A DNA stretch of 64,000 nt from Mariprofundus sp. (GCA_021772775.1 JAJFLH010000020.1:1-64000), one strand, 5' to 3'. Shown: positions 29,635 through 50,574, numbered from the stretch's first letter. The notes: generated from the sequence alone by a model not told the origin. Translations and numbers: made by a program.

Positions 29635-29638
29635 TCAG

Positions 29639-30505
29639 ATGACAGATAAACTCAAAGTAGCAGTTACAGGGGCCAGTGGGTTTATAGGTCAATATGTGTT
29701 GAAATCGTTGGCCAAGAAAAATGTCGACGTTATCGCTGTAGTGCGCAATAAGGTCGACTCAAAACTTGAAGGTCCAGAGTTTCGTCTGGTTGAAATGGAT
29801 ATAAGCAGTCCCGGAGAAAATCCATTTGAGTCTATGGGAAGCCCGGATATATTGATTCATCTTGCATGGGGTGGATTGCCTGATTATGAAAACAACTCTC
29901 ATTTGGAAGAAGAGTTACCTATACATGTTTCATTTGTATCGAATATGGTAAGGGCAGGATTGAAGACGCTTTTTGTCAGTGGAACATGTTTAGAGTATGG
30001 CATGAAGTCTGGTGAATTGAGTGAAAGGGATCTGCCTTCGCCGACTAATCCTTACGCCATAGCAAAGAACACCTTGCGAAAGGAGTTGGAAGATTTAAAA
30101 AACAGATATGAATTCAATTTGATTTGGTCACGTCTCTTTTATATGTATGGAGAAGGTCAGGGTTCCGGATCTCTCTACCCACTACTTCAAAAAGCGATCG
30201 AGCGTGGAGATGCTGTATTTAATCTATCCGGTGGAGAGCAGTTGCGAGATTATTTACACGTTGAGGATGTCGTAGATAGTATTACCTTACTTGCACTGGC
30301 GCGACAGGATTTTGGTATAGTCAATATCTGCTCTGGAAAGCCAGTATCTGTTCGTCACCTAGTTGAAGGGTGGTTAAAACAGCAGCCATGTTCGATTCGC
30401 CTGAACTTTGGTTATTATCCGTATCCAGATTATGAAGCGATGGAATTTTGGGGGTCCATAAAAAAATTACATCCGTTGATATATCCATCGATGAAATATG
30501 GTTAG
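29639..30505 (+). CDS. NAD-dependent epimerase/dehydratase (nucleotide-sugar reductase)
   Basis: VAVTGASGFIGQYVL, NPYAIAKNTLR, RDYLHVEDVVDSI. Confidence 0.9.
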   Translation: MTDKLKVAVTGASGFIGQYVLKSLAKKNVDVIAVVRNKVDSKLEGPEFRLVEMDISSPGENPFESMGSPDILIHLAWGGLPDYENNSHLEEELPIHVSFVSNMVRAGLKTLFVSGTCLEYGMKSGELSERDLPSPTNPYAIAKNTLRKELEDLKNRYEFNLIWSRLFYMYGEGQGSGSLYPLLQKAIERGDAVFNLSGGEQLRDYLHVEDVVDSITLLALARQDFGIVNICSGKPVSVRHLVEGWLKQQPCSIRLNFGYYPYPDYEAMEFWGSIKKLHPLIYPSMKYG

Positions 30506-30575
30506 ATGCCTTTGGCACTAAGCATGCTAATGATAAGCGATAAGAGTAATTTATAAAGGTTAAAAAAGGATTTTT

Positions 30576-31859: not shown

Positions 31860-33094
31860 TGAAAGTTTCTGTAGAAGAGCTTCGTAATATTACAGATTCT
31901 CACGAGATCTATATTTGGGGGGCGATGATTGTTGGTCAGGGGGTGTGCCGCTCCCTTGAACGTTACGGTGTCCAGGTAACCGGGTTCATAGATTCAAGTT
32001 CTGGTCTACAAGGCAACAGAGCACTGGGCTATGAAATCCTTGCACCTGCAGTGCTTGATGATAAAGATCATCAAAAAATCGTAGTTGTTGTCAGCTCAGG
32101 GCATTATGATAAAGAGATTGAGCAGCTCTGCTTGGCTCATGGCTTGAAAAAGAACGACAGTTATATCCTGAGCAGGGAGCTTAACGATATTGATCCTAGT
32201 ATTGATATTGTGGGTAGCTGTAATCTGAAGTGTATCTCTTGTCCACGTGGTAATATGGAAGATTCATTGCCTAAAGGCTTGATGAGTATTGAAGACTATC
32301 GGGCTGTTGTTGAAAAGTTATTAAGAGAATTGCCACTACTTGGCAGTATTCAGCTTTATGCTTGGGGAGAACCATTTCTACATAAGAAACTACCTGAAAT
32401 TATTGCGATCAACCGGAAAGCTCATCTACTAACCGCGATCTCAACAAATTTAAACGTTCCTGTGGATTTTGAACGTGTGCTCATTGAGAAGCCAGACTGG
32501 ATCAAAGTTTCGGCTTCAGGTTTCGGTGCAAATTACGAAGTGACTCATACTGGTGGCAAGTGGGATATGTTCTTGAAGAACATTCACCGTTTAGCAAAGG
32601 CCCGAGATAAAGTGCATCCTGATTTGCAGATTATGTTGAATTACCATCTCTATAAACATAACTGTGAAGAAGACTACGTTCAGATGCAGGCATTATGTCG
32701 CGAACTGGGGCTGATATTTCGATCCAATCATGCTTATCTTTATCCTCTGGATCTTGTGCGGGATGCTGTCGATGGGAAAGCTTTGCCAGTTGAGGCAGAG
32801 GCAACCAAAAGTCTGCTTTTGATGTCAATGGAAGAGGGATTGGAAAAGGCCAAGGCGCAGAAACATCTGCCTTGCCCTGAATTAAGCTGTTTACCAATTA
32901 CCTGGGATCGACAGGTTCGTTTTTGTGGTGTTTATTACAATCCATTTCTTTCAAATGATTTTCTAGAGGAGCCATTGGAGAGTATGGTACAGCGGCGTAA
33001 TACCAGTGAGTTCTGTCAGGAGTGTATGGATCTAGGCTTGCATCAGTATACTGGAGTTTATCTACAGGAAACGCTATTGAAGAGGGGCGAATGA
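31859..33094 (+). CDS. Radical SAM protein 2, paralogue of preceding ORF
   Basis: IYIWGAMIVGQGVCRSLERYG; GSCNLKCISCPRGN; ATG at 31859 overlaps preceding TGA. Confidence 0.9.
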   Translation: MKVSVEELRNITDSHEIYIWGAMIVGQGVCRSLERYGVQVTGFIDSSSGLQGNRALGYEILAPAVLDDKDHQKIVVVVSSGHYDKEIEQLCLAHGLKKNDSYILSRELNDIDPSIDIVGSCNLKCISCPRGNMEDSLPKGLMSIEDYRAVVEKLLRELPLLGSIQLYAWGEPFLHKKLPEIIAINRKAHLLTAISTNLNVPVDFERVLIEKPDWIKVSASGFGANYEVTHTGGKWDMFLKNIHRLAKARDKVHPDLQIMLNYHLYKHNCEEDYVQMQALCRELGLIFRSNHAYLYPLDLVRDAVDGKALPVEAEATKSLLLMSMEEGLEKAKAQKHLPCPELSCLPITWDRQVRFCGVYYNPFLSNDFLEEPLESMVQRRNTSEFCQECMDLGLHQYTGVYLQETLLKRGE

Positions 33095-34356
33095 AGTCTT
33101 TGGATATCGCGGCATTGCAACAAATGATTGCTGGCCGACAGGTTTGGATTTGGGGTGCAGGAAATCATGGGCGCGGGCTTAGTCAGAGTTTGGATAAGTA
33201 TGGAATTAAGGTGAATGGCTTTATTGATAAATCATCAGACCTGCTTGGTAAACGCGCTCTGGGGTTACCAATTGTCGGCCCATCGATGATTGAGATGAAC
33301 GGCTTTTCGGAACAGCATTTTATTATCGTTTCTACATTTTATTTTGAGGCTGAGGTGAAGCAAACATGTCAGGCATCTGGTTTAGAGGAGGATTGTGACT
33401 TTATTGCTTACACCCGCTTAAAACCAAATGACTATGCCATTGATATCACAGGAGCATGCAACCTCAAATGTATCTCTTGTCCGCATGCTTACAATAATCC
33501 CGCTGAGCGAAAGGGCGGAGTCATGCATCTGGACCTATTTAAGCAGGTGTTAGATAAAATCGTTGCAGAGGCTCCTTTTGTTGGAAATGTTCAGCTTTAT
33601 CAATGGGGGGAGCCGACCCTTCATAAGCAATTGCCTCAGATGTTGAATTATGCAGAGACTCTTGGTATTAAATGTGCGGTATCGAGTAATCTGAACGTGC
33701 CTGCAGATTTTGAATCGATAATAAAAGCGAAACCAGAATGGTTGCGGCTTTCAGCCTCTGGCTGGGAAAAACGTTACGAGATTACACATACACTGGGTGA
33801 CTGGGAGTTGTTTACACACAACCTTCGGGAAGTGTGTCGATTAAGGAAGCGCTGGCATCCAGAGATGAAGGTTGAGCTCTATTACCATCTCTATAAACAT
33901 TCAGTTGGAGAAGACTTTGATCGCTGGAAGGCCTTGTGCTCAGAACTGGAGATTGAGTTTCATCCTGTTTATGCCTATTTAATATCCTTGGATGATGTAT
34001 TGGCCTATCAGGAAGGTGCCCCTCTCCCTGTTGAGGCTCAGAAGGCTTCTGAGATGCTGTTATACCCCATGGATGAGGGGGTGCGAGAAGCCAAGGCCGA
34101 GGCAAAACTTCCATGTGATACTTTTAGATGCATTAGCATTAATTGGGACCTTTCAGTGAGCAATTGCATGATGTATTATTACCCTACGAATAATGTTGCA
34201 GCCGCCAACTATTTGGAAACGCCGATTGATGAGATTATGAGTGTTCGAGAAGATTGTAATCTTTGCCAGCGCTGCATGGATAAAGGAGTACATCGTTATT
34301 GTGGGGTTTATTCACGTAAGAAAGTAGATCAAAAAATGATGCAGGGTGGGGATTAG
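33091..34356 (+). CDS. Radical SAM protein 3, paralogue of preceding two ORFs
   Basis: VWIWGAGNHGRGLSQSLDKYG; GACNLKCISCPHAYN; ATG at 33091 in ATGA overlap with preceding ORF. Confidence 0.9.
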   Translation: MKSLDIAALQQMIAGRQVWIWGAGNHGRGLSQSLDKYGIKVNGFIDKSSDLLGKRALGLPIVGPSMIEMNGFSEQHFIIVSTFYFEAEVKQTCQASGLEEDCDFIAYTRLKPNDYAIDITGACNLKCISCPHAYNNPAERKGGVMHLDLFKQVLDKIVAEAPFVGNVQLYQWGEPTLHKQLPQMLNYAETLGIKCAVSSNLNVPADFESIIKAKPEWLRLSASGWEKRYEITHTLGDWELFTHNLREVCRLRKRWHPEMKVELYYHLYKHSVGEDFDRWKALCSELEIEFHPVYAYLISLDDVLAYQEGAPLPVEAQKASEMLLYPMDEGVREAKAEAKLPCDTFRCISINWDLSVSNCMMYYYPTNNVAAANYLETPIDEIMSVREDCNLCQRCMDKGVHRYCGVYSRKKVDQKMMQGGD

Positions 34357-35674
34357 AGTGGCAGCGATCAATGTTGTTCATCTGGCTCCACATTATGGCG
34401 GTGGTGTGGGCTCGGTCATCCGGTCACTTATAGAAAAGCAGACGGAATATAAGATCAGTCATGAATTGGTGGCTCTAGAGTCAATAAATTCACCTATGCT
34501 TACTTGGTGTGAGAATCATTATGTAGCAACACTACAGCATGGGCTTGAGCAGAGTTCCAAACTTTCAGCCAGGTTAGCAGAGGCTGATATTGTGCATATT
34601 CATTGGTGGAATCATCCTCTTTTGATGCAGTGGATGGTTAGCTGTTCGGCATCGCCATTTCGTTCTGTATTATGGACGCACGTCAATGGCATGCATGCAC
34701 CACAAGCTTTTTTTAAAGAGCTCTTTAGTTTTTCTGATATTACAGCTTTGGCGACGCCCTTTAGTCTTGAGTCTCTAGTGATTCCTCAGGGTGGGGCTGA
34801 TGTTCGTGTAATGCAAAGTATGTCAGAGGTAACAATTTCTCCACAATCCGATGTTAAACGTAGTGAGGGGGTTAATATCGGTTACATCGGAACAGTCGAT
34901 TATATAAAAATGCATCCGCAATTCATTCGGTTGTGTCTGGATGCAAAAATTAATGATGTCAGATTTACCGTTTGTGGAGGACCGTATGAGAAGCTAGTTC
35001 GTCAGCAGATTGCCGAACTAGGCGCAGAGGCATCATTTGATATCAGAGGTCCAGTTAACAATGTTAGCGAGGTGCTTTCTGAGCTGGATCTATTTGGGTA
35101 TCCGTTAAACCCCAAGCATTATGGCAGTGGAGAACAGGTATTGCTCGAAGCGATGGGTGCAGGAGTTGTGCCTGTTGTTCTCGATACTGGCTGTGAGCGT
35201 TTTATTATTCATGATGGTAAGGATGGGATTATCGCATCATCATGTGAAGAATATAGCCAAGCATTAAACTATCTTGCCAATAACCCAGCGCTTCGCCGAA
35301 CCATGTCTTTGGCTGCCCGACAAAGAGCGAAATTTTTATCTCAGGAGAAATATTGGGAGGCTTGGTTACAGCTATATGAAGAGTTGTTGACTAGGTCTAA
35401 AAGAGTACACCATTTGAAGTTGTCCAAATCTTATAACTCTTTAACACAAGGTGGAGCTTTGCTTCTACAGGCATATCAGGACACGTCGTTTGATAGTGTG
35501 TTTATGAATGCGTTGGCGGATTTGGCTGAGTCAAACCAATTAATCGATTCAGTTCCTTGGAGTATGCAGTCTGCAACAAGAGGTACACCCAAACATTATT
35601 TGAGTTATTTCCCGGAGGACAAAGATTTATCACGTATTTGCAAGAAGTTTGCAGCATTTAAGGTGCTGGAGTGA
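34346..35674 (+). CDS. GT4-like glycosyltransferase
   Basis: HLAPHYGGGVGSVIRSLIEKQ, GYIGTVDYIKMHPQF, GSGEQVLLEAMGAGVVPV. Confidence 0.85.
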   Translation: MGIRVAAINVVHLAPHYGGGVGSVIRSLIEKQTEYKISHELVALESINSPMLTWCENHYVATLQHGLEQSSKLSARLAEADIVHIHWWNHPLLMQWMVSCSASPFRSVLWTHVNGMHAPQAFFKELFSFSDITALATPFSLESLVIPQGGADVRVMQSMSEVTISPQSDVKRSEGVNIGYIGTVDYIKMHPQFIRLCLDAKINDVRFTVCGGPYEKLVRQQIAELGAEASFDIRGPVNNVSEVLSELDLFGYPLNPKHYGSGEQVLLEAMGAGVVPVVLDTGCERFIIHDGKDGIIASSCEEYSQALNYLANNPALRRTMSLAARQRAKFLSQEKYWEAWLQLYEELLTRSKRVHHLKLSKSYNSLTQGGALLLQAYQDTSFDSVFMNALADLAESNQLIDSVPWSMQSATRGTPKHYLSYFPEDKDLSRICKKFAAFKVLE

Positions 35675-35729
35675 GACGACTTATGTTGTTGGACTTTGAA
35701 GAATATAAAATTATAGAAGGAGTAAGTTC

Positions 35730-37160
35730 ATGAAGGTAATGCTTATCCAGCCTGCAAGGCTTGCAACATTAAGAGAAAGCAAAGGCACGATCCCAGTTCC
35801 TTTATTACATTTAAGAGCAGTACTCCAAGCAAATGGAGATGAACCTATTGTATATGACCTATCGGTTAAAAAATGCCCTGATGATTTAGATGTGGAGACA
35901 TTTATTTTTCAGGATATTGAACAACAAATTGATAGCCAAGCCCCACAGTTGATAGGTGTAAACTGCTTTACTTCAATTCATTTTCAAACTGTTTTACAGC
36001 TTGTTGAACATATAAAAGAGAAGTATCCCGATATTCCCATTGCTGTAGGTGGGGCGCATCCAAGTTTGTTTCCAGAAGAGATATTAAAGGGAGCTGATGC
36101 GATTGATTATGTCATTGTTGGAGAAGGTGAAGAGCAAATTGTTCAATTAGTGAACTTTATTAAAACAGGGGACTGGTCTGTTTTAGAGGCTACGCAAGCA
36201 TTATCATATCGTAAAAATGGTGAGGTTGTTTATAATATTCGCCGCACTTATATTGACGATTTGGATGACTTGCCTAATCCTGCTTGGAATTTGATTAATA
36301 CATCCGATTATTCAACAGATCTATCTTCTTGGCACAACCCCAAAGGGCTGGACTTTACTACTTCGATGCCAATCATTACGTCGCGTAGTTGTCCGTTTAA
36401 ATGTAATTTTTGTGCCTGTTTTACAACGATGGGCCGTAAATTAAGGTTGAGAAGCCCATCAAGGGTTGTCGATGAAATACAGATGTTGCATGAAGTTTAT
36501 GGGCAAAATTATTTTGGATTTATTGATGATATTGTAAACCTCCATCAAAACCATTTTATCGCAATTTTAGATGATATTGTTAAGCGCGGTTTGAATATTC
36601 ACTTTGATACGACATGCGGTGTACATATAGGCACACTTAATGAAGAAGTCATTGATGCGATGGCGCGAGCAGGCTGTGCATTTATTCGACTGCCCATAGA
36701 ACATGGCAATGACAATATGAGAAACAATATTATTGGCAAACATTTGGACAGAGATAAAATTTATGATCTTGTGAAGGTGATTAAAAAATATGACATGGTC
36801 ACCTCAAGTATGTTTATTTATGGCTTTCCTGAAGATACGGTCGAAACTGTTCAGGATACATATGATATGATTTGTGACTTGAAACTGGATAGAAATTACG
36901 TATTTAATATCATTCCATTCCCAGGAACAAGGGTGTTTCAGGAAGCTAAACAGCATAACCTCTTCATCGGTGATTTTGCTGTGGATGAGCTATGGAAGGG
37001 AAAAATTAACCTTGACCCAGTAGCAGATGAGCCTCGCTTTTTTATCAAACCACATAATATGGAAATTGAAGATTTGAAACACTTCCGTACTTTATTTGAT
37101 TCTGTACAAGTCTTTAGTGAAAGGGCAAAGAACAGTCATACTTTATGTGGCTCTAAATAA
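35730..37160 (+). CDS. B12-binding-domain radical SAM protein
   Basis: MKVMLIQPA..., GGAHPSLFPEEILKGADAIDYVIVGEGE (B12-binding-like), SRSCPFKCNFCACF (CX3CX2C). Confidence 0.92.
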   Translation: MKVMLIQPARLATLRESKGTIPVPLLHLRAVLQANGDEPIVYDLSVKKCPDDLDVETFIFQDIEQQIDSQAPQLIGVNCFTSIHFQTVLQLVEHIKEKYPDIPIAVGGAHPSLFPEEILKGADAIDYVIVGEGEEQIVQLVNFIKTGDWSVLEATQALSYRKNGEVVYNIRRTYIDDLDDLPNPAWNLINTSDYSTDLSSWHNPKGLDFTTSMPIITSRSCPFKCNFCACFTTMGRKLRLRSPSRVVDEIQMLHEVYGQNYFGFIDDIVNLHQNHFIAILDDIVKRGLNIHFDTTCGVHIGTLNEEVIDAMARAGCAFIRLPIEHGNDNMRNNIIGKHLDRDKIYDLVKVIKKYDMVTSSMFIYGFPEDTVETVQDTYDMICDLKLDRNYVFNIIPFPGTRVFQEAKQHNLFIGDFAVDELWKGKINLDPVADEPRFFIKPHNMEIEDLKHFRTLFDSVQVFSERAKNSHTLCGSK

Positions 37161-37164
37161 GGCT

Positions 37165-38316
37165 ATGGGAAGAGCCTGCCCAGTTTGTCATTCTAATAAC
37201 AGTGAATGTATAACCTCATTACAGTATCTGATGTGGGATGATTCGGTTTTAAATGGCACTGCAGAGTTAGTGGGATGTAAGAGCTGTGGGATGCTGTTTA
37301 ATGATACCTTAGATGAAGAGACTGATTTCGAGCGATATTATGCGGATGATGATTATTATGCTGTCGCCGATAGCGCTGGAGCAGGGGCTGTGAGTGAGCA
37401 AGAGCAGATGCGCTATTTGAGGATATTCGAGACTTTTTCTGATTACCTCAGTACAGATAAGCCATGTCTAGTAGATATGGGTGCTGGTCAAGGCGGCTTT
37501 TTGAAATGGTGTCAAAGCAATAAGCAGGTGGAAGCTATTGCTGTCGAGATGTCAGAAGCATGTGCATATAAAATGAGAAATGAGCTTTCTATTCCTGTAT
37601 ATAAAAAATTCACAGACATTGAGAGAAAGGACATTGATATCATTGTTATGTCTCATGTTATGGAACACCTCTTTCAGCCTGATGAAGTGTTGAAGTCAAT
37701 TGTTGATGAAGTATCTGGGCAGACTCTTTTTTACATAGAAGTGCCCAATGCGGCCTGCTATTTGATTGATGAAAACCCATGGAAACATCTCTATTTTGAG
37801 CACATCAATCATTTTGATGCGCTTCATTTAGATAGTTTTATTCGTAGCTTTGGATTGGAGCCTGTTGCACAGGGAAACAGATCTTTTTCTCCGGGCTCAG
37901 GAGATGATAAAGAGTGTGTGTTTGTGCTCTGTAAAAAGAGCTCAACAACGCAGCGAGGTTCTGATATGAGCTTGCTTCATCATGCAAAGACAAGCTTTCT
38001 AGATAACTCCTCATTGTTTCATATGTTGGAGAAACAAATGAATTTAGCTAAAAGTATTAGCATTTGGGGTGCTTCTCAATATGTACAGTTGCTATTGGGT
38101 AGTAGCGAGTTGTTGAGAGACAATATCCGTTTTCTTGTTGATAAGTCTTCGGCAAAATGTGGTCGTATGATGGGTGGTATTGAAGTGAAGCCCCCATTAG
38201 TACTTTCTGATTTAGGTGTCGATGATCTGCTATTGATTCCACATGGTCCATATGTTCAAAATATGAGAATGGAACTTGAGAAAATGAATTTTCAAGGTGA
38301 TGTCCTTGAGTTCTGA
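37165..38316 (+). CDS. SAM-dependent methyltransferase with zinc-binding N-terminus and IWGA C-domain
   Basis: CPVCHSNNSECI...CKSCGMLF, LVDMGAGQGGFLKW, SISIWGASQYVQLLLG; ATG 37165 preferred over 37096. Confidence 0.85.
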   Translation: MGRACPVCHSNNSECITSLQYLMWDDSVLNGTAELVGCKSCGMLFNDTLDEETDFERYYADDDYYAVADSAGAGAVSEQEQMRYLRIFETFSDYLSTDKPCLVDMGAGQGGFLKWCQSNKQVEAIAVEMSEACAYKMRNELSIPVYKKFTDIERKDIDIIVMSHVMEHLFQPDEVLKSIVDEVSGQTLFYIEVPNAACYLIDENPWKHLYFEHINHFDALHLDSFIRSFGLEPVAQGNRSFSPGSGDDKECVFVLCKKSSTTQRGSDMSLLHHAKTSFLDNSSLFHMLEKQMNLAKSISIWGASQYVQLLLGSSELLRDNIRFLVDKSSAKCGRMMGGIEVKPPLVLSDLGVDDLLLIPHGPYVQNMRMELEKMNFQGDVLEF

Positions 38317-38408
38317 TCGAAATCTCTACTTTGCATATATAACCTTTATGATTGTGTGATGCTGTTAATAAAAAAAGAGTAACTTTTTAGACTTAGAGGA
38401 ATAATACG

Positions 38409-39116
38409 ATGATTGAAGGTAATGAAGAGGAAATAACATTCTCTAAACAGAAAGATATTATGCAGCAGTTAGGTATTCAAGCTCCAGTCATATTTGATGT
38501 TGGAGCTAATATTGGGCAAAGCATTTTGAAATATCGCACTCTTTTTCCCGATGCTGGAATTTGTTCATTTGAACCAAATTTAGAGGTTATAAGAGAGCTT
38601 CAATTAAACGCAGATCAGGCATCTGGTGTCGAAATATTTAAGATTGCATTTAGTGATTCAGATGGAGAGAGCGAGTTTTATAGGACTGCAGTTCCAGAAG
38701 CTTCATCTCTGTTAAAACCAGAACAATTTTTAATGGATTTAAGCAAAGAGAATAAATATGACTTTGATAAGGTTGTTGTTCCTACTATGACGCTGGACAC
38801 TTTTGTTGAAGAACATCAAGTGAGTACGATAGATCTCCTTAAAATTGATGTTCAGGGAGCTGAGTTGAAAGTGTTAGAGGGAAGCTCAGTATCATTAAAG
38901 TCAGGTCTGATTAAATGCATCTATATTGAAGTGAATCTAGCTTCGACATATGTTGGTCAAATGTCGTTAAATCAACTTATGAAACTTATGGCTGCATGCA
39001 ACTTTCAACTGTGGGATATATTACCCTTTGTTTATACAAGAGTAGGGAGAGCTTGGACAGCAAATGCTATTTTTGTACAAAATGATATGGTGAAGAAAAT
39101 CGAGGGGAATTATTGA
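38409..39116 (+). CDS. FkbM-family methyltransferase
   Basis: IFDVGANIGQSILKYRTLFPDAGICSFEPN, DLLKIDVQGAELKVLEG. Confidence 0.92.
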   Translation: MIEGNEEEITFSKQKDIMQQLGIQAPVIFDVGANIGQSILKYRTLFPDAGICSFEPNLEVIRELQLNADQASGVEIFKIAFSDSDGESEFYRTAVPEASSLLKPEQFLMDLSKENKYDFDKVVVPTMTLDTFVEEHQVSTIDLLKIDVQGAELKVLEGSSVSLKSGLIKCIYIEVNLASTYVGQMSLNQLMKLMAACNFQLWDILPFVYTRVGRAWTANAIFVQNDMVKKIEGNY

Positions 39117-39117
39117 A

Positions 39118-39852
39118 ATGAAGGATGACCATGATCAGTTTTTGAAGGCTAGAAAACAACGATTACAATCGGTTGAAGGCAACAGTGAGCTAATCGATAG
39201 TGCTCAAGCCTTTCTTAAACAGTGCCATCATGATGACTACTCTTATAATTTTGATTGGATGGGTTTACCCGTTATTCAGTATCCCCAGGATTTATTGGTT
39301 ATGCAGGAGATTATTTGGAGAGTAAAACCTGATTTAATCATTGAGATGGGGATAGCTCGCGGTGGCTCTCTTGTTTTTTATGCATCTATGCTGGAATTGC
39401 TTGGTAGTGAAGGTCGAGTGTTAGGGATAGATGTGGATATTCGTGAACACAATAAACGACGTGTTTTAGATCATCCAATGAGTAAACGAATTGAAATGAT
39501 AGAGGGCTCTTCGCTTGATAGTGATACCCACCGGAGGGTAAAAGAGATTGCTCATCAGCATCAAACAATTATGGTCTGTTTAGACTCAAATCACACTCAT
39601 GAACATGTTTTGAATGAGCTAAGGCTGTATGCTCCATTGGTAAGTAGTGGCTCATATTGTGTTGTCTTTGATACGATTGTAGAGCTAATGCCTGACAATC
39701 ATTATCAAAATAGGCCATGGAATAAGGGAAATAGTCCAGCAACGGCAGTCCTTAGCTACCTTGAAGAGTGTAAGGACTTTAAAGTTGATGTTGAGGTTGA
39801 CTGTAAGTTACTAATTTCAGCTGCGCTTGGTGGCTATCTGTATAAAAAATAA
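39118..39852 (+). CDS. Cephalosporin-hydroxylase (CmcI)-like protein, probable SAM methyltransferase fold
   Basis: GLPVIQYPQDLLVMQEIIWRVKPDLIIEMGIARGGSLVFYASMLELLG, VCLDSNHTHEHVL. Confidence 0.88.
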   Translation: MKDDHDQFLKARKQRLQSVEGNSELIDSAQAFLKQCHHDDYSYNFDWMGLPVIQYPQDLLVMQEIIWRVKPDLIIEMGIARGGSLVFYASMLELLGSEGRVLGIDVDIREHNKRRVLDHPMSKRIEMIEGSSLDSDTHRRVKEIAHQHQTIMVCLDSNHTHEHVLNELRLYAPLVSSGSYCVVFDTIVELMPDNHYQNRPWNKGNSPATAVLSYLEECKDFKVDVEVDCKLLISAALGGYLYKK

Positions 39853-39913
39853 TAAATCGTGTTAACTGTTTTTTTATTGCTAAAATAAATTATGAATGAT
39901 GTGAGAAAAGTAG

Positions 39914-41155
39914 ATGAAGAAACCTCCTATTAGTATATGTATGCCGACCTTTAATCGAGCAAGGATCTTGGATGAAACATTATCCCATTTGGTCGATTGT
40001 AAGAGTTTTTTTGATTTTGAGCTTGTCATTACAGATAATGCATCTGAGGATAATACGCCTCAGATTATTGATAAGTACAGAGATCAGTTTCCCAGCCTTA
40101 TCTACCATAGACAAAGTGAAAATATTGGAGCTATACTCAATTCTGCTTCGGCATTGAATCTTGCCACCTCAGAACTTTCATACCTGTTTCCAGATGATGA
40201 TAGGCTTGTTCCAGAGACCATTCAAAAAATTATTGGCATGTTTGATGATAGCTCTCAACTTGTGGCTGTTTACGGGAATCATATTGAATTTAATCCTTAT
40301 ACGGGAAAGGAGTTCGAGCTGTGCCTGAGAATCAAGGAAGAGAAAATATTTAACTATGACAGTCGTGTCGATATGTTTGAGCAGTACAGTCAAGTATGGA
40401 GTCCCGTTTTTAAAACAGGAATCAGTCAACGTTTTAATTATTTTGATGAGACTACATTTGGTCTTTGGCAAGTTGTTGAAAACATTATAAAATATGGCTC
40501 AATTGCTTTGATTCCAGACGCTGTGTACAAACATGCTCATACGAAAGATCGCATGGAACAGGACTTGGTAGAGCCATGGTATCAGGATTGTCACAGATCT
40601 GATTTTGAGCTGTTTATAGGAAGGCTTGGTATTGATCATTCAATTGAAGGTATTACAGAGCATGTAATCAAGGCGGTATCTGATCGCTCTGTATCAGCTT
40701 ATGTGACTGCATGTGATTTTTCGCGTGAGCAGGAAAAGTATATGTTACAGCGCCATTATCTACTGCGGGCTCGTTGCTACGGCCTCGTTACAGATGAGCA
40801 GATGAAGGTCCAAGAAGAAAACTTCATGCTACATTGGCTTTTAGAGCGAGTTGAAACGACTCTCAAAGGTTTACCTGATGTTCAGAAAATAGTTATGGAA
40901 AGATCAGCTATGAGTGAATATATACTTTTTTTAATAAACAGTGAACGATTCTCTTCACTCCCTTGCATGGAGCTATGTTCAGCTGATCAATTGGAAGAGC
41001 GAGAAACTGATGATGGGGAGTTATTATTAGTTTCTGATTACTCCACGATAGAAAATAGAAAAATAAAAAAACAGGGCTATGAGTTTTCTATCAATGATAT
41101 CATCAGCACGTTAAGAGTTACGCAAGGAGATTTGTTGATTAAAACAGTGCATTAG
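39914..41155 (+). CDS. Family 2 glycosyltransferase
   Basis: ISICMPTFNRARILDETLSHL, LVITDNASEDNT, LFPDDDRL. Confidence 0.9.
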   Translation: MKKPPISICMPTFNRARILDETLSHLVDCKSFFDFELVITDNASEDNTPQIIDKYRDQFPSLIYHRQSENIGAILNSASALNLATSELSYLFPDDDRLVPETIQKIIGMFDDSSQLVAVYGNHIEFNPYTGKEFELCLRIKEEKIFNYDSRVDMFEQYSQVWSPVFKTGISQRFNYFDETTFGLWQVVENIIKYGSIALIPDAVYKHAHTKDRMEQDLVEPWYQDCHRSDFELFIGRLGIDHSIEGITEHVIKAVSDRSVSAYVTACDFSREQEKYMLQRHYLLRARCYGLVTDEQMKVQEENFMLHWLLERVETTLKGLPDVQKIVMERSAMSEYILFLINSERFSSLPCMELCSADQLEERETDDGELLLVSDYSTIENRKIKKQGYEFSINDIISTLRVTQGDLLIKTVH

Positions 41156-41215: not shown

Positions 41216-41293
41216 CTTGAATGCATGCCATCTCCTCATAACTGAGGAGATGGGGTAATCCCCCCCATTATTAAGTGAAGTTAAAAGTAGAGG

Positions 41294-42380: not shown

Positions 42381-42472
42381 GTAGAATCTCCTTATTTAAT
42401 CGTAATAGAAAATTCTACTTTTAACTCCTGTTACTTTTCGGGAGTATTACTATGGCTCAGGCTATATGCGGG

Positions 42473-45400
42473 TTATTTTTCTGCGATGAGGTTCAGGCTG
42501 ATTCGTTTGCCTGCAAACTCCATATTGCTGGTATCATTGAAGAGACCAAAGTTCTCCACCTTGCGGATGTTTTTGAAACCAGCCTTGCCTAAAAAGTGGG
42601 CCAGTATTTCAGGGTCATATCCTATTTTGTGGAAATCATAAGCATCAATTTGACCACCATACATCATGCGCATAACCAAAAACCTATCATCAGATGATAA
42701 TTCAGTTTTGTTTAAGAAGAGCTCACAAAGTATGTCTAGGTTAGGTACACTGGCATAGACGGTGCCGCCTGGTTTGATAACACGATACCATTCGGCTAAA
42801 ACCTGAGGAAGCTCTAAATGATAACTGAAGTGCTCCAATACATGTGAAGAGTAAAGCGCTTCAAATGTGTTATCTTTAAATTTTGTGAGATCATTGGCGT
42901 TACCAATGTGGTCGACTATATTGGAATCATTGGCATCCATAATTTCCCACTCGGGGTGTTTTACTTGCCCCCCGATATGCAGTTTTCTGACAGCGCTAGT
43001 GGAAAAGTCTTTAGGAGGGAGGTTAAAGCGCAATCTGATTAAATCATTACGCCGCTGCATGGCGTCATCTTTATATCCCATAGTAAGAAATTTCTCGATA
43101 TCTGGAAGAGGGGACTGACCTAGTGTGTAGGATGTGTAGGAGTGTAGTTTTTCTTTAGTGGCGAGTGCCATAGCAAGAAACCAATCATCGAGTCGGTTGT
43201 CTGTATCAGTGCTTTCAGCCATGACAGAGGCTGCCAAAAAAGGTTCTGAGGCATCAACGCTGCTCTCATGTTTAGCCATCTGGATGATTTGACTCAGAAC
43301 CTGAACAGCTACTACTCGCTGTCCCAATTCAGTTGCAACACGTGCTAGTGTCATCAGTCGTGGTGTTGTGATATGAATGTCCAACAGTGAGACCAGTTGA
43401 ATGAATGATTGTTGAAGGTGTGAAGACCTGGTCTCATTCTGTTCACCTGTATGGGCGGAGGCATAGTAGTTTAGAGCCAGCTCATAAGATTCCCAGCCAG
43501 GAAGAGGGTCGTTGACTGTATCTGATAACCAGTGACTCAATAACTTGTTGGCATAGCGTTTGTCGGTAAGCAACGTGCTCCAATGAGTTGTTGGCTCTGT
43601 CTGCTGTTCATCATTTAAAAGCATGAGCCGGCCATCATTGGCCAGTTTTTTTGCTCTATCCTCTTTACAACAAAACAGGTTAAGTAAAAAATCATCAGCA
43701 TTATCATTGTGATTGAACGGAACCAATAGATCTAAGCCGGGAATAAGATGATAAGATTGGTAATTCATCTCTTTAAACTTTTGAATGAGCCCTACATTGA
43801 CTTCTGCACCATGTTTTATTTCAAACATGACCAGCGGTGAAAAAGATGAGAAAAATGTTTGCCCGCCTTCCAAAATGTGAACCTCTTCACCTTCAGCATC
43901 CAGCTTAACAAAGGATATATCATTCCATTTATAGCTGTCGATGCAATCATCTAATCGTTTTAATACCACTGATTCTGTTGGGCTATTGCCAGGTTTCTCG
44001 GTGATGGAATTTAATTCACTATCGCAATTGAGGGCTAACTCAGCGCTGCCTTCACGGTTAGAGAGAGCCGCATTGACCAGAGTAATATTTTTAAAACGGT
44101 TGGTTTTGATACTTTTTCTTAAAAATGAAGCGGTGTTTGTGGCCGGTTCAAAAGCCCAAAGGTGACCTGGTTTACCAATGAGTTTAGCCATAGTCATAGC
44201 GTAACAGCCATAGTTGGCACCAATATCGAGTATGTTCATTGAGGGTTTGATTATTTTGCGAATAAATTTGATCTCATCTTCAAACCAGTCCTGCTGCTCA
44301 AATAAAACATAGGGTGTCATGAGGCTAACGTTGTTGGGGACCTCTATCTTGATATTACCTTCTATACTTAGGGTTAACGATTGCTCGGCTCGTAGTGTCT
44401 GGGGATCAATAGCAAGTTCTGCTTTAGTCATCTCCAACCTAGAGGCCGCTGCGAGTGGGGAAATATGTTTATTGGGAGACGCTGTGAGTGACTCCTTCCC
44501 AGCTTGCTGTTGATTCGTAGGAATTGATTGTGAACAGACAGTTGCTGCATAACCCATTTTCATTTCCCATGCTCGTAAATATTGTTCTTCAAGTTGTTGT
44601 GTTACTTTTGCGGGATTGAAGATGAGTGAATGTTTAAACAGTGTATGGATACATTTTCGCAGCACACTCAGGCTTTCAGGCCTGAAGGCTAGTTCTACGG
44701 CTTTTTCTATATAGGCATCAACATTATGGGTGATGGTAGAGTCAAAACCGATACATTTCAGAATAGAAGAAGAAACGCGTTGCACATGACATGTCCCTTC
44801 TAGTGTAATAACAGGGACCCCCATCCATAAGGCTTCTAGTGTTGTATGTGTGCCATGATAAGGAAATGTATCGAGGACTATATCTACTCTATTGTATAGT
44901 GCTGCGTGTTCATCGTATGAATTGATATAACCTGAAAACTCGACACGATCACTTGTAATGCCATTTTTGAAAAATTCATTCAGAATATTGTTTTTGATGA
45001 TATCCAAATGGCATCCTGATGATTTGATTAACATCTTTGAATTATCAACACGTTGTAAAATTTGAGCCCAAGCTTCGACGACTTGTGGATTCATTTTACG
45101 GATATGGTTAAATGATCCGAAGGTGATCGTTTTAGTTAATTCGGCAGGTGTTTTTTGACTCCTTTCAACATCGGGTAGACCTCTCATGCATAGAAATGTT
45201 ACTGGCATTTTAAGGAGTTCTTCAACATAATGAGTGCCATTTTCAGCATCACTATGCTGATCGGTAATGCGATAGTCGATGGTAGATAAACCATAAGTGT
45301 TTGGATATCCGAGGTAGTTGATTTGAACAGGGGCGGGTTTGAATGCCATGATTGGCATGGGGGAATTGGCCGTGTGCCCACTTAAATCAATTAAAATATG

Positions 45401-46225
45401 AATTCCATCATGGGATATTCTTTGGGCGGCCTGAGCATGGGACAAGTCGGAAATATCAATAAAGTGATCCGAAGCCATGCGAAACTCATCTGTCATGAGA
45501 TCATCTTTTATGAGACGGGCATAACAGAAAATTTCAAATTTTTCTTTGTCATGATTTTGAATGACAGGCAAAGCCAAGTGTCCAACAGGGTGTTTATTGA
45601 AGTCAACGGAGAGATAGCCGATTTTTAATTTTCCATGAGGGGCTGGAGGGGAGGGGAGGAAGAGCCCTGCATCATCACATACTTTTTTTGATTCATTTCC
45701 CCAATAGCGATGAATGTCAAACAGGTCATCTGCGCTGATCTCGGGAATTGTATTCATATCAAGCAGGGTGCCTGCGATAAAACGCAAAGGAATCTCGCCC
45801 TGTTTGATGCTGCTGATTACGGTACCCGTTAATTTATTTGCTTCGTGCCAATTGCAGGTGCTTTGAAAAGCAGAAAATGCGGATAATGTATCTTCAGGAT
45901 TAATTGGATTATCTCTGAGCTGCAAGGCGAGTTTAAGCATGGCTTCTGTTTGGCTGGAGTCTCTATAACATCCAAACAGGAATATTCGTGCCTCTGCCTG
46001 ATTCGGGTCGATCTCTAATATCTGCTTAAATATTTTAATAGCATCTTCGAAGTCACGCTGGAAATAATAGGACTGAGCTAAAATATTTTTTGCTTCGATA
46101 TTGTTGGAGCTACGTTTGAGAACTTTTAGACACAATTTTTTTGCCTGCTTGCAATTACCGATCTCAATCAGGTTTCTGGCTTTCTTTAGATGATTTGCGG
46201 TGGTACTGTTCACTTGTAACTCCAA
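42473..46225 (-). CDS. TPR + SPINDLY/GT41 O-GlcNAc-transferase-like + FkbM methyltransferase + C-terminal SAM methyltransferase fusion
   Basis: 1250 aa: TPR N-terminus; GYLSVDFNKHPVGHL, GSFNHIRKMNPQVVEAWAQIL, DTFPYHGTHTTLEALWMGVPVIT (OGT); NILDIGANYGCYAMTMA (FkbM); LYSSHVLEHFSYHLELPQVLAEWYRVIKPGG (MT). Confidence 0.9.
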   Translation of the reverse strand: MELQVNSTTANHLKKARNLIEIGNCKQAKKLCLKVLKRSSNNIEAKNILAQSYYFQRDFEDAIKIFKQILEIDPNQAEARIFLFGCYRDSSQTEAMLKLALQLRDNPINPEDTLSAFSAFQSTCNWHEANKLTGTVISSIKQGEIPLRFIAGTLLDMNTIPEISADDLFDIHRYWGNESKKVCDDAGLFLPSPPAPHGKLKIGYLSVDFNKHPVGHLALPVIQNHDKEKFEIFCYARLIKDDLMTDEFRMASDHFIDISDLSHAQAAQRISHDGIHILIDLSGHTANSPMPIMAFKPAPVQINYLGYPNTYGLSTIDYRITDQHSDAENGTHYVEELLKMPVTFLCMRGLPDVERSQKTPAELTKTITFGSFNHIRKMNPQVVEAWAQILQRVDNSKMLIKSSGCHLDIIKNNILNEFFKNGITSDRVEFSGYINSYDEHAALYNRVDIVLDTFPYHGTHTTLEALWMGVPVITLEGTCHVQRVSSSILKCIGFDSTITHNVDAYIEKAVELAFRPESLSVLRKCIHTLFKHSLIFNPAKVTQQLEEQYLRAWEMKMGYAATVCSQSIPTNQQQAGKESLTASPNKHISPLAAASRLEMTKAELAIDPQTLRAEQSLTLSIEGNIKIEVPNNVSLMTPYVLFEQQDWFEDEIKFIRKIIKPSMNILDIGANYGCYAMTMAKLIGKPGHLWAFEPATNTASFLRKSIKTNRFKNITLVNAALSNREGSAELALNCDSELNSITEKPGNSPTESVVLKRLDDCIDSYKWNDISFVKLDAEGEEVHILEGGQTFFSSFSPLVMFEIKHGAEVNVGLIQKFKEMNYQSYHLIPGLDLLVPFNHNDNADDFLLNLFCCKEDRAKKLANDGRLMLLNDEQQTEPTTHWSTLLTDKRYANKLLSHWLSDTVNDPLPGWESYELALNYYASAHTGEQNETRSSHLQQSFIQLVSLLDIHITTPRLMTLARVATELGQRVVAVQVLSQIIQMAKHESSVDASEPFLAASVMAESTDTDNRLDDWFLAMALATKEKLHSYTSYTLGQSPLPDIEKFLTMGYKDDAMQRRNDLIRLRFNLPPKDFSTSAVRKLHIGGQVKHPEWEIMDANDSNIVDHIGNANDLTKFKDNTFEALYSSHVLEHFSYHLELPQVLAEWYRVIKPGGTVYASVPNLDILCELFLNKTELSSDDRFLVMRMMYGGQIDAYDFHKIGYDPEILAHFLGKAGFKNIRKVENFGLFNDTSNMEFAGKRISLNLIAEK

Positions 46226-46304
46226 TATTCAGGTTTGTTTTTGGTGACAACGAAAAAAAGCAAGAACGAGGCCAATAAAAAACAAAAAAAGTTTCATTTT
46301 TTAT

Positions 46305-46331
46305 TAAAGTCCACTTGCTCCTTGGCGATAG
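46305..46331 (+). promoter_or_regulatory. Sigma28 (FliA)-like promoter for flagellin
   Basis: TAAAGTCC-N11-GGCGATAG against consensus TAAAGTTT-N11-GCCGATAA, about 100 bp upstream of fliC ATG. Confidence 0.75.
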
Positions 46332-46431: not shown

Positions 46432-47253
46432 ATGGCATTAACAGTCCAAACCAATAACGCGGCAATGACCGCACTGAAACACCTCAATACAAATAGCCAA
46501 AATATGAATAAATCATTGGAACGTTTATCATCCGGTTTTCGGGTAAATAACGCATCTGATGATGCCTCAGGATTTGCAGTTTCATCCAAACTTGATGCAC
46601 AGGCAGGTCGCCTGAAAGCTGCATCTCAAAATGCAGTGCAAGCAACAGCAATGGTGAAAATGGCAGATGCTGGTATTAATGAAATTCAGAATATGGTGTC
46701 TCGTATTCAGACTTTGGCAACCCAGGCTGCATCAGCCAACAATGCTGGCGAATTAGGAAAATTGGATGGTGAAGTTACTAAACTTGAAACTCAGATTGAT
46801 AAAATTGCTGCTTCTACCAACTATAATGGTGTTCAGTTGCTTGATGGGACTACTGGAACGGCAGCTGTTCAGGTTGGTGCTGATAACAACACGAATAACC
46901 AGGTTACAGTGGATTTAGGTAAAGCATATACTACGACTGGTATGAGTTTAGGTGGATCTGTTTCTACTCAATCTCTTGCTCAGGCGCATATCACAACAGC
47001 GAAAGCATCAATGGATGCGCTTATTACAAATCGTGCTGATCTTGGTGCAACTCAGAATCAGTTAGGCTTTGTTCAGGCGAATCTGGCAACCAGTGTGGAA
47101 CAGACGGTTGCCGCGGTGTCTTCAATTCGAGATGCAGATATGGCTGCTGAAATGGCCAATTTCACCAAGAATCAGATACTGACACAAGCTGGTACGTCTA
47201 TGTTGGCTCAGGCGAATCAGGCAGCACAAAACGTTCTCTCACTGTTCAGGTAA
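46432..47253 (+). CDS. fliC: Flagellin
   Basis: N-term NNAAMTALKHLNTNSQNMNKSLERLSSGFRVNNASDDASGFAVSSKL; C-term ANFTKNQILTQAGTSMLAQANQAAQNVLSLFR. Confidence 0.97.
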   Translation: MALTVQTNNAAMTALKHLNTNSQNMNKSLERLSSGFRVNNASDDASGFAVSSKLDAQAGRLKAASQNAVQATAMVKMADAGINEIQNMVSRIQTLATQAASANNAGELGKLDGEVTKLETQIDKIAASTNYNGVQLLDGTTGTAAVQVGADNNTNNQVTVDLGKAYTTTGMSLGGSVSTQSLAQAHITTAKASMDALITNRADLGATQNQLGFVQANLATSVEQTVAAVSSIRDADMAAEMANFTKNQILTQAGTSMLAQANQAAQNVLSLFR

Positions 47254-47320: not shown

Positions 47321-47701
47321 ATGATTACAGTTCCAAGTAACAACGTTCAATTTAGTCCTGTGCTTTCTTCGCCGAATGTGGGTAGTGCGATTGTCAATCC
47401 AGCTAAGCAGCAGTCTAGTAATGCAGTTCCGGTTAAACAGGAAAGTATACAGGGTAATGTTAAGCAACAGAAAGTAACAACGCAGGATGTTCAAAAAGCT
47501 ATTCAACAGGCAAATCAGGCATTTTCCAGATCGAGTGAGTCTATTTCTTTTGGCTATGAAGAAAAACTTGGGCAACTTTTTGTGACAGTGATGGATAAAG
47601 AAAGTGGCGAAGTTGTACGAGAAATTCCATCTAAGGAGTTTATTCAACATAAAGTCTTTATGAAGGAAATGGTAGGTTTGTTGCTGGATAAGCAGGTTTA
47701 G
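47321..47701 (+). CDS. flaG: FlaG-family protein
   Basis: SFGYEEKLGQLFVTVMDKESGEVVREIPSKEFI. Confidence 0.88.
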   Translation: MITVPSNNVQFSPVLSSPNVGSAIVNPAKQQSSNAVPVKQESIQGNVKQQKVTTQDVQKAIQQANQAFSRSSESISFGYEEKLGQLFVTVMDKESGEVVREIPSKEFIQHKVFMKEMVGLLLDKQV

Positions 47702-47704
47702 ATC

Positions 47705-50035
47705 ATGGCTGATACAGGGATTGGTAGTATTATATCCAGCCAGGTGGCTGGATTTGATGCTCAAGCTGCTGTTGATGGCCTGCTCGGGCTACGCAAGTTT
47801 GAAATTAGCCAGTTAGAAAAGAAGCAGGATGCACTGACAACAAGGCAAGATGCACTTCTTCAGATCAATGATGCATCCAGAGCTTTACGTACTACAGCAA
47901 TCGGCATGTCTGATAAGGCTGGTTTTTTTGGCTATACAGCCAGCCTTTCCACGAGTGATGCGGCTGTAAATGCATCAAACCTTATTGATGTTAGTGGTAC
48001 CTCAGGCTTGGCTTCCGGGCAGCATAGTATTGTTATTTCTCAGATTGCACAGGCGCAACGGTACTCCTCATCGACAGCAGTTCTGGATAATACGGCTACT
48101 GCAGCAGCTTCTGCATCCAGTGTGTTGAACTTGACTGGTAGTTTTTTGATTGAAGGCGCTAGTGTGACAGTGAGTACATCAGATTCTCTTAATGATATTG
48201 CATCGAATATTAATCAGCTTAATACAGGATCTTCGGCAACAGGTGTCACCGCTTCGGTTATGAAGGTGGCAGACAATGATTTTCGCCTTATTTTGACTGA
48301 TGATGCAACAGGGGCGACAGGTTTTACGCTCACTGGAGCTGATCTTAGTGGAGCTCTTGCCAACTTACAGTTGGCTACGCCGCAAGTATTGATGGCCGCT
48401 CAGGATGCATCATTCACTGTTGATGGTTTAGCCGTGACGCGTAGCACTAATACCGTTAGTGATGTGTTATCTGGGGTTACTTTGAGCTTGAAGCAGGCAG
48501 ATGCTGCGACCACGATCAATATTACAATCGGTGTGGATCAACAGGCAATACGTGATAATGTTCAAATATTTATTGACAGTTATAATGCTTTGCAGACATT
48601 GATTAACGATCAGTTTCAATTTGATCCGAGTACCGGTGTAGGTGGTGTTTTGGCAGGTGAAGGCTTGCTGACTTCTATTACGGGTAATATGTCATCCAGT
48701 TTACTAAAAACTGTGCCTGGTTTGGCTTCGGATCGTAATAGTCTGGTTATGGTCGGTGTGGAGCCGGATGAGACTGGGCAGTTGATTATCAATGAAACTC
48801 TATTTGGCAACTTTCTAGCCAACGATGCAACTGCTATTCGGGATGTCTTTGTAGCCCAAGGTAGCAGTAGTAATAATAGTTTGCAGTTTTTAACCCATGG
48901 TTTTACCACTCCATCAGGTACTTATAGTGTAAATGTTACACAAGCAGCAACCAAAGCTTCGGTGACAGGCTCAACAGATTTATCTGGTGGCTTGGGGGTG
49001 GCGACGGATACGGTCACAATTACGGCCACAGGATCATCTCGCCAAGCTGCTGTAACATTAACACTGGGGCAATCGCAAAGTGAAATTGTTGATGCTTTAA
49101 ATGCTGAGCTTTCAGCTGACTACACAGAGCAGCACCAGCTATCGACTGCTTTAATTGCAGCTGCAGCTGCAGCGACTGGTTCGACTACTTTTTCTGCGTT
49201 AGATGGCGTGGCAATAGCTGCCAGTGATACCATCTCAATCAGTGGTACGTTACGTTCAGGTGCTTCTGTAAGTGGAACGTATTCGGTCTTGGATCCTGCA
49301 GTGGATACTATATCTAACCTGTTATCATCGATACAAACAACATTTAATCAGGAAGTAATCGCATCCATTGATGCGAATGGGAAAATCAGTGTGACTGATG
49401 TTAGTACTGGTGATTCGCAACTGACCGTTGCATTAACAGCGAATAATGAAGGAGGCGGATCTCTAGCTTTTGGTAGTGATACTGTAGCTACTGAAGGGCG
49501 TTATGCCGTTCCAGCTGTTGCAGTAATTTCTGGCAATGGTGTTGCTATTGAATCGACTTCATTTGGAACAGGGGGATTCACTATAACACAATCGGTGGAT
49601 GGGCTTGGCATAGCTGATCAGAGTGCGGCCGGTACTGATGTTGCGGGTACTATCAATGGATTGGCAGCAACCGGTGGTGGTCAGATATTAACTGGGTCGT
49701 CTGGGGATGTGGAGGCTTTGGCTATAATGTATACGGGCTCTGCAACGGGTGCCGTGGGTGATCTTACTGTTGGTATCGGTATTGCAGCTGGTTTTGACAA
49801 TATTCTTGATCTTTTTTCTAATCCAGTCTTTGGCCTTATCCAAAATAGCGTAGTAGCTGATCAGACATCATTTGATGCTTTGACGCTTAAAATAGATAAT
49901 CTTACTGCGCAAATGGAGAGACAGAGAATATTATTAACCGGCCAGTTTACACGTATGCAGACTGCAATGGCTAGCTTGCAGCAGTCGGGAAGTTTTTTAA
50001 GTCAGAATATTAACGCTCAGAACAGAAACTATTAA
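47705..50035 (+). CDS. fliD: Flagellar hook-associated protein 2 (cap)
   Basis: N-term IISSQVAGFDAQAAVDGLLGLRKFEISQLEKKQDAL; hook-IN-like repeats; C-term coiled coil MERQRILLTGQFTRMQTAMASLQQSGSFL. Confidence 0.93.
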   Translation: MADTGIGSIISSQVAGFDAQAAVDGLLGLRKFEISQLEKKQDALTTRQDALLQINDASRALRTTAIGMSDKAGFFGYTASLSTSDAAVNASNLIDVSGTSGLASGQHSIVISQIAQAQRYSSSTAVLDNTATAAASASSVLNLTGSFLIEGASVTVSTSDSLNDIASNINQLNTGSSATGVTASVMKVADNDFRLILTDDATGATGFTLTGADLSGALANLQLATPQVLMAAQDASFTVDGLAVTRSTNTVSDVLSGVTLSLKQADAATTINITIGVDQQAIRDNVQIFIDSYNALQTLINDQFQFDPSTGVGGVLAGEGLLTSITGNMSSSLLKTVPGLASDRNSLVMVGVEPDETGQLIINETLFGNFLANDATAIRDVFVAQGSSSNNSLQFLTHGFTTPSGTYSVNVTQAATKASVTGSTDLSGGLGVATDTVTITATGSSRQAAVTLTLGQSQSEIVDALNAELSADYTEQHQLSTALIAAAAAATGSTTFSALDGVAIAASDTISISGTLRSGASVSGTYSVLDPAVDTISNLLSSIQTTFNQEVIASIDANGKISVTDVSTGDSQLTVALTANNEGGGSLAFGSDTVATEGRYAVPAVAVISGNGVAIESTSFGTGGFTITQSVDGLGIADQSAAGTDVAGTINGLAATGGGQILTGSSGDVEALAIMYTGSATGAVGDLTVGIGIAAGFDNILDLFSNPVFGLIQNSVVADQTSFDALTLKIDNLTAQMERQRILLTGQFTRMQTAMASLQQSGSFLSQNINAQNRNY

Positions 50036-50053
50036 TTAAATCGTGCTTTTTCC

Positions 50054-50080
50054 TTTAGTTGGATGTGAATTTTGCGATAG
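50054..50080 (+). promoter_or_regulatory. Weak sigma28-like promoter upstream of fliS copy 1
   Basis: TTTAGTTG-N11-TGCGATAG; same spacing as fliC site, poor -35. Confidence 0.4.
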
Positions 50081-50142
50081 ATAATACATCAACAAAACAC
50101 CGACGATGACCGTTGGTAATACCTAGAATGCAGGGAGCCTAT

Positions 50143-50574
50143 ATGACAGGATATAAAACTTACCAAGGAAATCAGGTTGAAGGAGCAGGGCCATTAGGGT
50201 TGATCTTGCTCACATATGATGCGTTGTACAAATCACTCGGCCGTGCGCGTATGGCTGCAACGAGTGGTGACTTTCTTTTTGAGGGGCAACAAACAGGCCG
50301 TGCTCTTGAAGCATTGGTGGAACTATCTACCTCTTTGAATATGGAAGATGGTGGTGAGGTTGCTACAAACTTATCCAAGCTCTATTTTTATATGAATGAG
50401 CGCTTGGTGAGTGAGATGTGTAGTGGTTCAGTAGACGCCATTGATGAGGTAATGGATTTGACACAAACATTGCGTGAAGCATGGAAAGGTCTGGAAGATC
50501 GCCAGCGTATGCCAGTTTCTCGTCCTAAGGTGACTCGGAGTATGCAAGCTGTTTCAGCGTCTTACGGTTACTAG
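50143..50574 (+). CDS. fliS: Flagellar export chaperone FliS, copy 1
   Basis: TYQGNQVEGAGPLGLILLTYDALYKSLGRAR, ALVELSTSLNMEDGGEVATNLSKLYFYMNERL; ATG 50143 preferred over ORF-track start 50113. Confidence 0.9.
   Translation: MTGYKTYQGNQVEGAGPLGLILLTYDALYKSLGRARMAATSGDFLFEGQQTGRALEALVELSTSLNMEDGGEVATNLSKLYFYMNERLVSEMCSGSVDAIDEVMDLTQTLREAWKGLEDRQRMPVSRPKVTRSMQAVSASYGY

Follow-up and report, generated by a model that had tools for sequence, protein, structure and literature searches.

A gene lying divergent from the flagellin gene fliC in Mariprofundus sp. (GCA_021772775.1 JAJFLH010000020.1:1-64000; this whole stretch of 64,000 nucleotides is referred to here as the window) is likely to encode an O-glycosyltransferase for flagellin that carries its own glycan-modifying modules, a reading given a probability of roughly 0.6 from the gene's position, its promoters and its family. 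The predicted protein joins tetratricopeptide repeats (TPRs) and a GT41 glycosyltransferase domain to a tail made up of an FkbM methyltransferase, a linker and a second methyltransferase. From the same lines of evidence it is very probable that flagellin is the acceptor, and there is a reasonable likelihood that the attached glycan is methylated by at least one domain of the tail. The organisms concerned are iron-oxidising Zetaproteobacteria, and a search of an open-access library found no relevant paper on flagellin in Mariprofundus.

The fusion gene and its link to flagellin

The frame comprises 1250 codons with zero internal stops, and the single uninterrupted 1250-residue open reading frame reported in a first-pass annotation of the window stands, as does its order of TPR, GT41, FkbM, linker and methyltransferase, which is recovered by Pfam and NCBIfam matches with the fold of the final methyltransferase coming from a structure model. 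The TTG at 46225 is without a Shine-Dalgarno sequence and a GTG four codons past it, at 46213, has GGAG six bases upstream, so that the GTG is the likelier start. All the modules recur in homologues adjoining flagellin, and chance or a frameshift artefact is therefore ruled out as the source of the long frame. Truncation of the 3' end by a neighbouring IS3-like element is also ruled out, as the C-terminus (ISLNLIAEK) ends as those of the homologues do. This element (41290-42440) lies directly 3' of the fusion gene, separating it from a sugar island described below, and its transposase is broken, the rve and HTH_21 parts being read in separate frames. The features concerned are as follows.

42473..46225, minus strand: TPR-GT41-FkbM-linker-methyltransferase fusion gene; 1250 codons counted from TTG, 1246 residues from the likelier GTG start
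45896..46198, minus strand: TPR region, approximately residues 10-110, with Pfam TPR matches; presumed acceptor-binding part
44558..45655, minus strand: GT41 catalytic domain, residues 191-556, with SPINDLY-type active-site residues
43676..44389, minus strand: FkbM methyltransferase module, residues 613-850; DIGANYG (motif I) and KLDAEGEE intact
43016..43675, minus strand: linker module of 220 residues (851-1070), belonging to no Pfam family
42476..43015, minus strand: C-terminal module, predicted class I S-adenosylmethionine (SAM) methyltransferase of 'LHIGG' type (MT3), residues 1071-1250
46260..46274, minus strand: sigma54-like -24/-12 site TGGCCTCGTTCTTGC upstream of the fusion gene (TGGC-N7-TTGC, GG-N10-GC spacing)
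46305..46330, plus strand: sigma28-like site TAAAGT-N15-CGATA upstream of fliC
46432..47253, plus strand: fliC, 273 residues, a short flagellin without the central D2/D3 insert; presumed acceptor

The gap between the TTG of the fusion gene and fliC is 206 bp, in agreement with the annotated distance of about 200 bp and divergent orientation. A genome-wide search found the fusion gene to be the only GT41 gene, and fliC, whose product according to Pfam is limited to the conserved N- and C-terminal regions of flagellin, is the only true flagellin gene; a second Flagellin_N match over the cut-off, in a 393-codon frame scoring 47 bits as against 106 for fliC, is possibly a hook-associated protein. 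The sigma28-like pattern occurs twice in the window against an expectation of 0.01. The sigma54 pattern is common in the window alone (6 found, 3.4 expected), and the sole reason for regarding the site as credible is that its position is conserved. Thus, when eight divergent intergenic regions were compared, a sigma54-like site was present on the enzyme strand in six (at most two in 1000 shuffles) and a sigma28-like site on the flagellin strand in seven (none in 1000 shuffles), both counts of independent sites being one lower because the regions of L018 and L019 are near-identical. RpoN is encoded in the genome.

A homologue search of 60 related genomes yielded strong TPR-GT41 matches. At all 12 loci where the contig reaches flagellin (L015-L026), as in the window, the TPR-GT41 gene adjoins flagellin or lies within a few kilobases of it, mostly in divergent orientation; the contigs of L027 and L028 end before the flagellin neighbourhood could be judged. 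Besides other genera, these homologous loci take in a second family of the order. Together with the single GT41 and single flagellin gene of the genome and the paired flagellar-type promoters, this bears out the link to flagellin that had been proposed from the window. Among 23 genomes of the genus, 17 have a detected flagellin and 10 of those 17 carry a TPR-GT41 gene like that of the window; flagellin was detected in all but one of the 11 carriers, the exception (G018) being a 78%-complete draft. What weighs on the other side is that in seven flagellated genomes of the genus no such gene was detected, and a gene of this kind is thus not needed for flagella in general; the enzyme goes with flagella, yet not every flagellated member has it.

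Some loci carry two GT41 enzymes, one tailed and one tailless, since a second GT41 gene with a longer TPR region and no tail adjoins flagellin in L017 (2912-5002), L020 (9394-11460), L021 (11209-13311) and L022 (10949-13039). The flagellins also differ: that of the window is short (273 residues), as are those of L016, L018 and L019, and in L015, L017 and L020-L025 the flagellin has an insert in its centre, about 100 residues long or longer. The type of enzyme might vary together with that of the flagellin.

Exchange of tail modules between lineages

Tail compositions were assigned by Pfam and BLAST.

Window: FkbM-linker-MT3
L015: FkbM-linker
L016: sulfotransferase-FkbM-linker
L017: FkbM-FkbM-linker
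L018, L019, L025: degenerate FkbM-linker-GT2
L023: degenerate FkbM-linker-GT2, in a longer version with a weak linker match
L020, L021: MT3 only
L022: MT3-FkbM
L024: GT2
L026: none
L027: MT3-sulfotransferase
L028: degenerate FkbM-linker-MT3 (draft contig, in-frame TGA in GT41)

The first-pass annotation had proposed looking for the same three-domain order beside fliC elsewhere; the expectation did not hold, as tails are swapped and the order is shared by one other genome only, where FkbM is degenerate. That tail modules have been exchanged between lineages is shown by conflicting GT41 and FkbM-linker trees and by disagreement between module identities. In its GT41 domain, L015 shares 71% identity with L025 and 45% with the window, yet in FkbM it shares 67% with the window and 29% with L025. 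Similarly, MT3 is 68-77% identical among the window, L020-L022, L027 and L028, with a sharp identity gap between its carriers and other methyltransferases of the order, whereas the GT41 domain of the window is only 44-49% identical to those of the same loci. Approximately unbiased (AU) tests rejected GT41 trees in which the window and L015 (p 9e-80), the four carriers of intact FkbM (p 4e-65) or the MT3 carriers (p 1.6e-3) were held together, and also an FkbM-linker tree in which L015 was held with L025 (p 5e-5); these p values are descriptive, the groups having been picked after the identities were known.

Judged by its conservation, and by its following FkbM or degenerate FkbM in homologues, the linker (residues 851-1070) is a module that travels with FkbM and not a mere spacer. 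The annotation of a 'helical linker' was thus right in that the segment is present and conserved, but it is more than a spacer, and an all-helical form comes from a low-confidence model of the whole tail only (predicted local distance difference test score, pLDDT, 48), which is too poor to give more than this hint.

In the degenerate FkbM of L018, L019, L023, L025 and L028, DIGANYG is replaced by DLSPEYG, DLHAGYG, DAPAGYG or DSPAGHG, KLDAEGEE is lost and one segment is missing; the linker and the preceding EQ-DW-E-E motif are retained, so the fold appears to be kept as a scaffold without catalysis. Among the loci read, a GT2 module is present in four of the five carriers of degenerate FkbM and in none of the four carriers of intact FkbM. 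Taken with the suggestion that methylation can block chain extension on type B flagellin of C. difficile (PMC5207246), this distribution raises the doubtful idea that an active FkbM caps the first sugar by methylation, that lineages with a decayed FkbM and a GT2 lengthen the chain, and that exchange of tails between lineages remodels the flagellar surface. It is a point against such a choice having been made repeatedly that intact FkbM forms one clade and the tested degenerate FkbM another (L023 is outside the tree), and the pattern hence does not represent several independent events.

Outside the order, three further families of the phylum have FkbM-linker modules at 37-40% identity; in L049 and L050 these are joined to TPR-GT41, and in L051 the module is separate from GT41. 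L050, from another family of the phylum, carries several TPR-GT41 genes in tandem, one of which ends in an FkbM-linker tail, and no flagellin match was found within the 19 kb read. Stand-alone MT3-like proteins are found in Magnetococcales, Planctomycetota and Pelagibacteraceae. A scan of named genomes found one Mariprofundus, the other groups having the MT3 module only.

Predicted methylation, donor sugar and acceptor

The FkbM module is matched at residues 667-823 by Pfam FkbM/Methyltransf_21 (PF05050; 5e-14, 53.2 bits, cut-off 22.7) and by NCBIfam fkbM_fam (TIGR01444; 3e-25, 89.3 bits, cut-off 37.7). For the C-terminal module, Pfam Methyltransf_11 matches the second half only (residues 1106-1157; 2e-10). 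An AlphaFold model made from a small alignment (pLDDT 77) was searched with Foldseek and nearly all matches were SAM methyltransferases (best E 2e-6, dozens at or below 1e-4, template modelling scores of about 0.35-0.57), so that the module matches a class I SAM methyltransferase fold, in line with the SAM methyltransferase domain that had been annotated. An alternative with a real, if minor, chance of being correct is that GT41 glycosylates flagellin and the methyltransferases act elsewhere, on residues of flagellin itself, on sugars added later by the GT2 or GT4 enzymes of the sugar island, or not at all. A structural role is conceivable given that five homologues retain a degenerate FkbM, and the C-terminal module has an atypical SAM motif I, in which LHIGG replaces GxGxG, with the first half of the profile unmatched, which also counts against the main reading. 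On the other hand, both FkbM signature motifs are intact in the window, FkbM enzymes are typical sugar O-methyltransferases, and the C-terminal methyltransferase is among the most conserved modules.

Both catalytic lobes of the GT41 domain are covered by the two stretches of the Pfam Glyco_transf_41 match (E 7.9e-63, 213 bits, cut-off 25). The closest solved structure is that of Arabidopsis SPINDLY (SPY; PDB 7y4i, 8dtf; E 1e-76), followed at lower rank by those of a Thermobaculum enzyme (9e-64) and human OGT (1e-57). The choice between GDP-fucose and UDP-GlcNAc involves SPY K689, A731 and Y744, equivalent to OGT L866, R904 and C917 (PMC10027727), and at these positions the window has K401, L443 and Y456. 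The OGT/SEC-like signature is thus not present; K401 and Y456 are kept in the window and in every homologue alignable there, and the site of OGT Arg904 is not Arg. The equivalent of the pyrophosphate Lys of SPY K665 (K377) and the SPY D491/H495 pair are likewise kept in the window and in all alignable homologues. As K401 and Y456 are SPINDLY-like and there is no Arg at the R904 site, a GDP-sugar is more likely than UDP-GlcNAc, and the active-site residues somewhat favour a GDP-6-deoxyhexose such as GDP-fucose as the donor; the 'O-GlcNAc-type sugars' of the first-pass annotation are not borne out, and UDP-GlcNAc is disfavoured as the default donor. Gmd is encoded in the genome, with a match over the cut-off, and Fcl-like proteins give split matches below the cut-off. 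Genome-wide searches found neither NeuB nor Maf (PF01973), which rules out a nonulosonic acid donor such as pseudaminic acid and a flagellin glycosyltransferase of the Maf type, respectively.

Several observations weigh against a SPINDLY-like donor. The SPY contacts S496, T748 and A731 are changed to P, H and L in the window, the last being neither the Ala of SPY nor the Arg of OGT, and the donor is uncertain because an intermediate prokaryotic GT41 group carries mixed residues (PMC10027727). In addition, the adjoining island makes a CDP-sugar and not a GDP-sugar.

26009..41155, plus strand: sugar/modification island encoding glucose-1-P cytidylyltransferase, CDP-glucose 4,6-dehydratase, RmlC-like epimerase, sugar C-methyltransferase and NAD-dependent epimerase/reductase; further genes for three radical SAM proteins, GT4, B12-radical SAM, methyltransferase, FkbM, CmcI-type O-methyltransferase and GT2

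It is unlikely, but consistent with some of these data, that the same enzyme acts on the same target with either UDP-GlcNAc, as a true OGT, or the island's unusual CDP-deoxyhexose. UDP-GlcNAc is universal and the GT41 family includes OGT; the genes at 26-30 kb form a complete-looking route to a CDP-glucose-derived, C-methylated deoxyhexose; and FlmG is a TPR flagellin transferase that uses another kind of donor, pseudaminic acid (PMC7591256). Against UDP-GlcNAc stand K401 in place of the OGT Leu, Y456 in place of the OGT Cys, with a predicted clash with the N-acetyl group, and the lack of Arg at the R904 site, and the island could equally serve O-antigen. Its genes, presumed to belong to the same pathway, are candidates for donor supply and chain extension, and the island may furnish outer sugars or an O-antigen. 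It is partly conserved next to homologues: CmcI-type homologues adjoin L018 and L019, and L028 is followed by a gene homologous to the island's GT2 gene (55% identical). Within it, at 30576-34356, three consecutive radical SAM proteins of about 410-440 residues are homologous to one another.

That the target is another protein or a surface polysaccharide, the adjacency to fliC being incidental, is improbable, for although other families have FkbM-linker and MT3 modules on their own and TPR-GT41 arrays at sites other than flagellin, and a polysaccharide-type island lies next door, the adjacency is kept across genera despite very different GT41 sequences and the conserved promoter pair is flagellar in type.

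Downstream of fliC lie further flagellar genes.

47321..50574, plus strand: flaG-, fliD- and fliS-like genes, named by position and translation; homologues are conserved adjoining flagellin in relatives

The first fliS-like gene is at 50113, and a second (50996-51505) has its own sigma28-like site TAAAGT-N15-CGATA at 50996; paired FliS copies occur in several relatives too.

Known systems, proposed mechanism and significance

Glycosyltransferases that both add and methylate a sugar have precedents, and these lend support to the idea, put forward in the first-pass annotation, that one polypeptide might do both. In enterobacterial flagellin islands, GT41 proteins with AdoMet methyltransferase domains were reported for 194 strains (De Maayer and Cowan 2016, PMC4875605). 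As far as the available part of that paper goes, they resemble the present enzyme in the fusion of a SPINDLY-type GT41 to a methyltransferase at a flagellin locus, but lie between fliC and fliA rather than divergent from fliC as in these Zetaproteobacteria, and a tail of FkbM, linker and second methyltransferase, with tails swapped between relatives, is not described there. FlmG of Caulobacter crescentus, whose TPR part binds flagellin and which needs pseudaminic acid (eLife 2020, PMC7591256), is by description a similar soluble TPR and glycosyltransferase enzyme for flagellin, but has two modules without a methyltransferase tail and a donor for which the present genome is without NeuB. The type B GT2 protein of C. 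difficile (CDR20291_0242), proposed with the aid of mutant data to add and methylate rhamnose (PMC5207246), also unites a glycosyltransferase with a methyltransferase (PF08241) adjoining fliC, but has a GT2 fold, extends an existing GlcNAc, and neither TPR nor FkbM is described for it. Arabidopsis SPINDLY shares the TPR-GT41 arrangement and the equivalents of K689, K665 and Y744, but has 11 TPRs, plant nucleocytoplasmic targets and no methyltransferase. In P. aeruginosa FgtA/PA1091, too, a flagellin glycosyltransferase, here a GT2, is fused to another modifying activity, a phosphotransferase (PMC11833859). TPR glycosyltransferases for flagellin, GT41-methyltransferase fusions in flagellin islands and glycosyltransferase-methyltransferase proteins at fliC are therefore already known; not found described are the tail with its linker module, the exchange of tails between lineages, the decay of FkbM among relatives that carry GT2 and the divergent, conserved pair of sigma54- and sigma28-type promoters.

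A mechanism can be proposed in which the sigma54-type promoter, judged from the conserved sites, would drive the enzyme gene while flagellin awaits its sigma28-type promoter, so that the enzyme would be present before its substrate. By analogy with FlmG and SPINDLY, the TPR region, in which two or three repeats are recognisable (Pfam matches at about residues 25-93, at the N-terminus), is presumed to bind the acceptor and would hold unfolded flagellin in the cytoplasm. The GT41 domain would then move a 6-deoxyhexose, probably fucose, from its GDP-sugar to Ser/Thr of flagellin, the acceptor being suggested by position and the donor by the active-site residues, and the FkbM and C-terminal methyltransferases would O-methylate the sugar in cis on the bound glycoprotein. 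In relatives, chain extension is the probable role of a degenerate FkbM with GT2, and sulfation of the chain that of sulfotransferase tails, and the swapping of tails may thereby change the flagellar surface.

If this is true, a single soluble protein would both attach and cap a flagellar sugar, and evolution would alter the product by plugging in tail modules. The specificity of cytoplasmic flagellin glycosylation would then be open to direct domain-swap tests, and the enzyme would offer a usable scaffold for glyco-engineering. For SPINDLY-like enzymes, common across bacteria but little characterised, it would provide a bacterial function in the O-fucosylation of flagellin.

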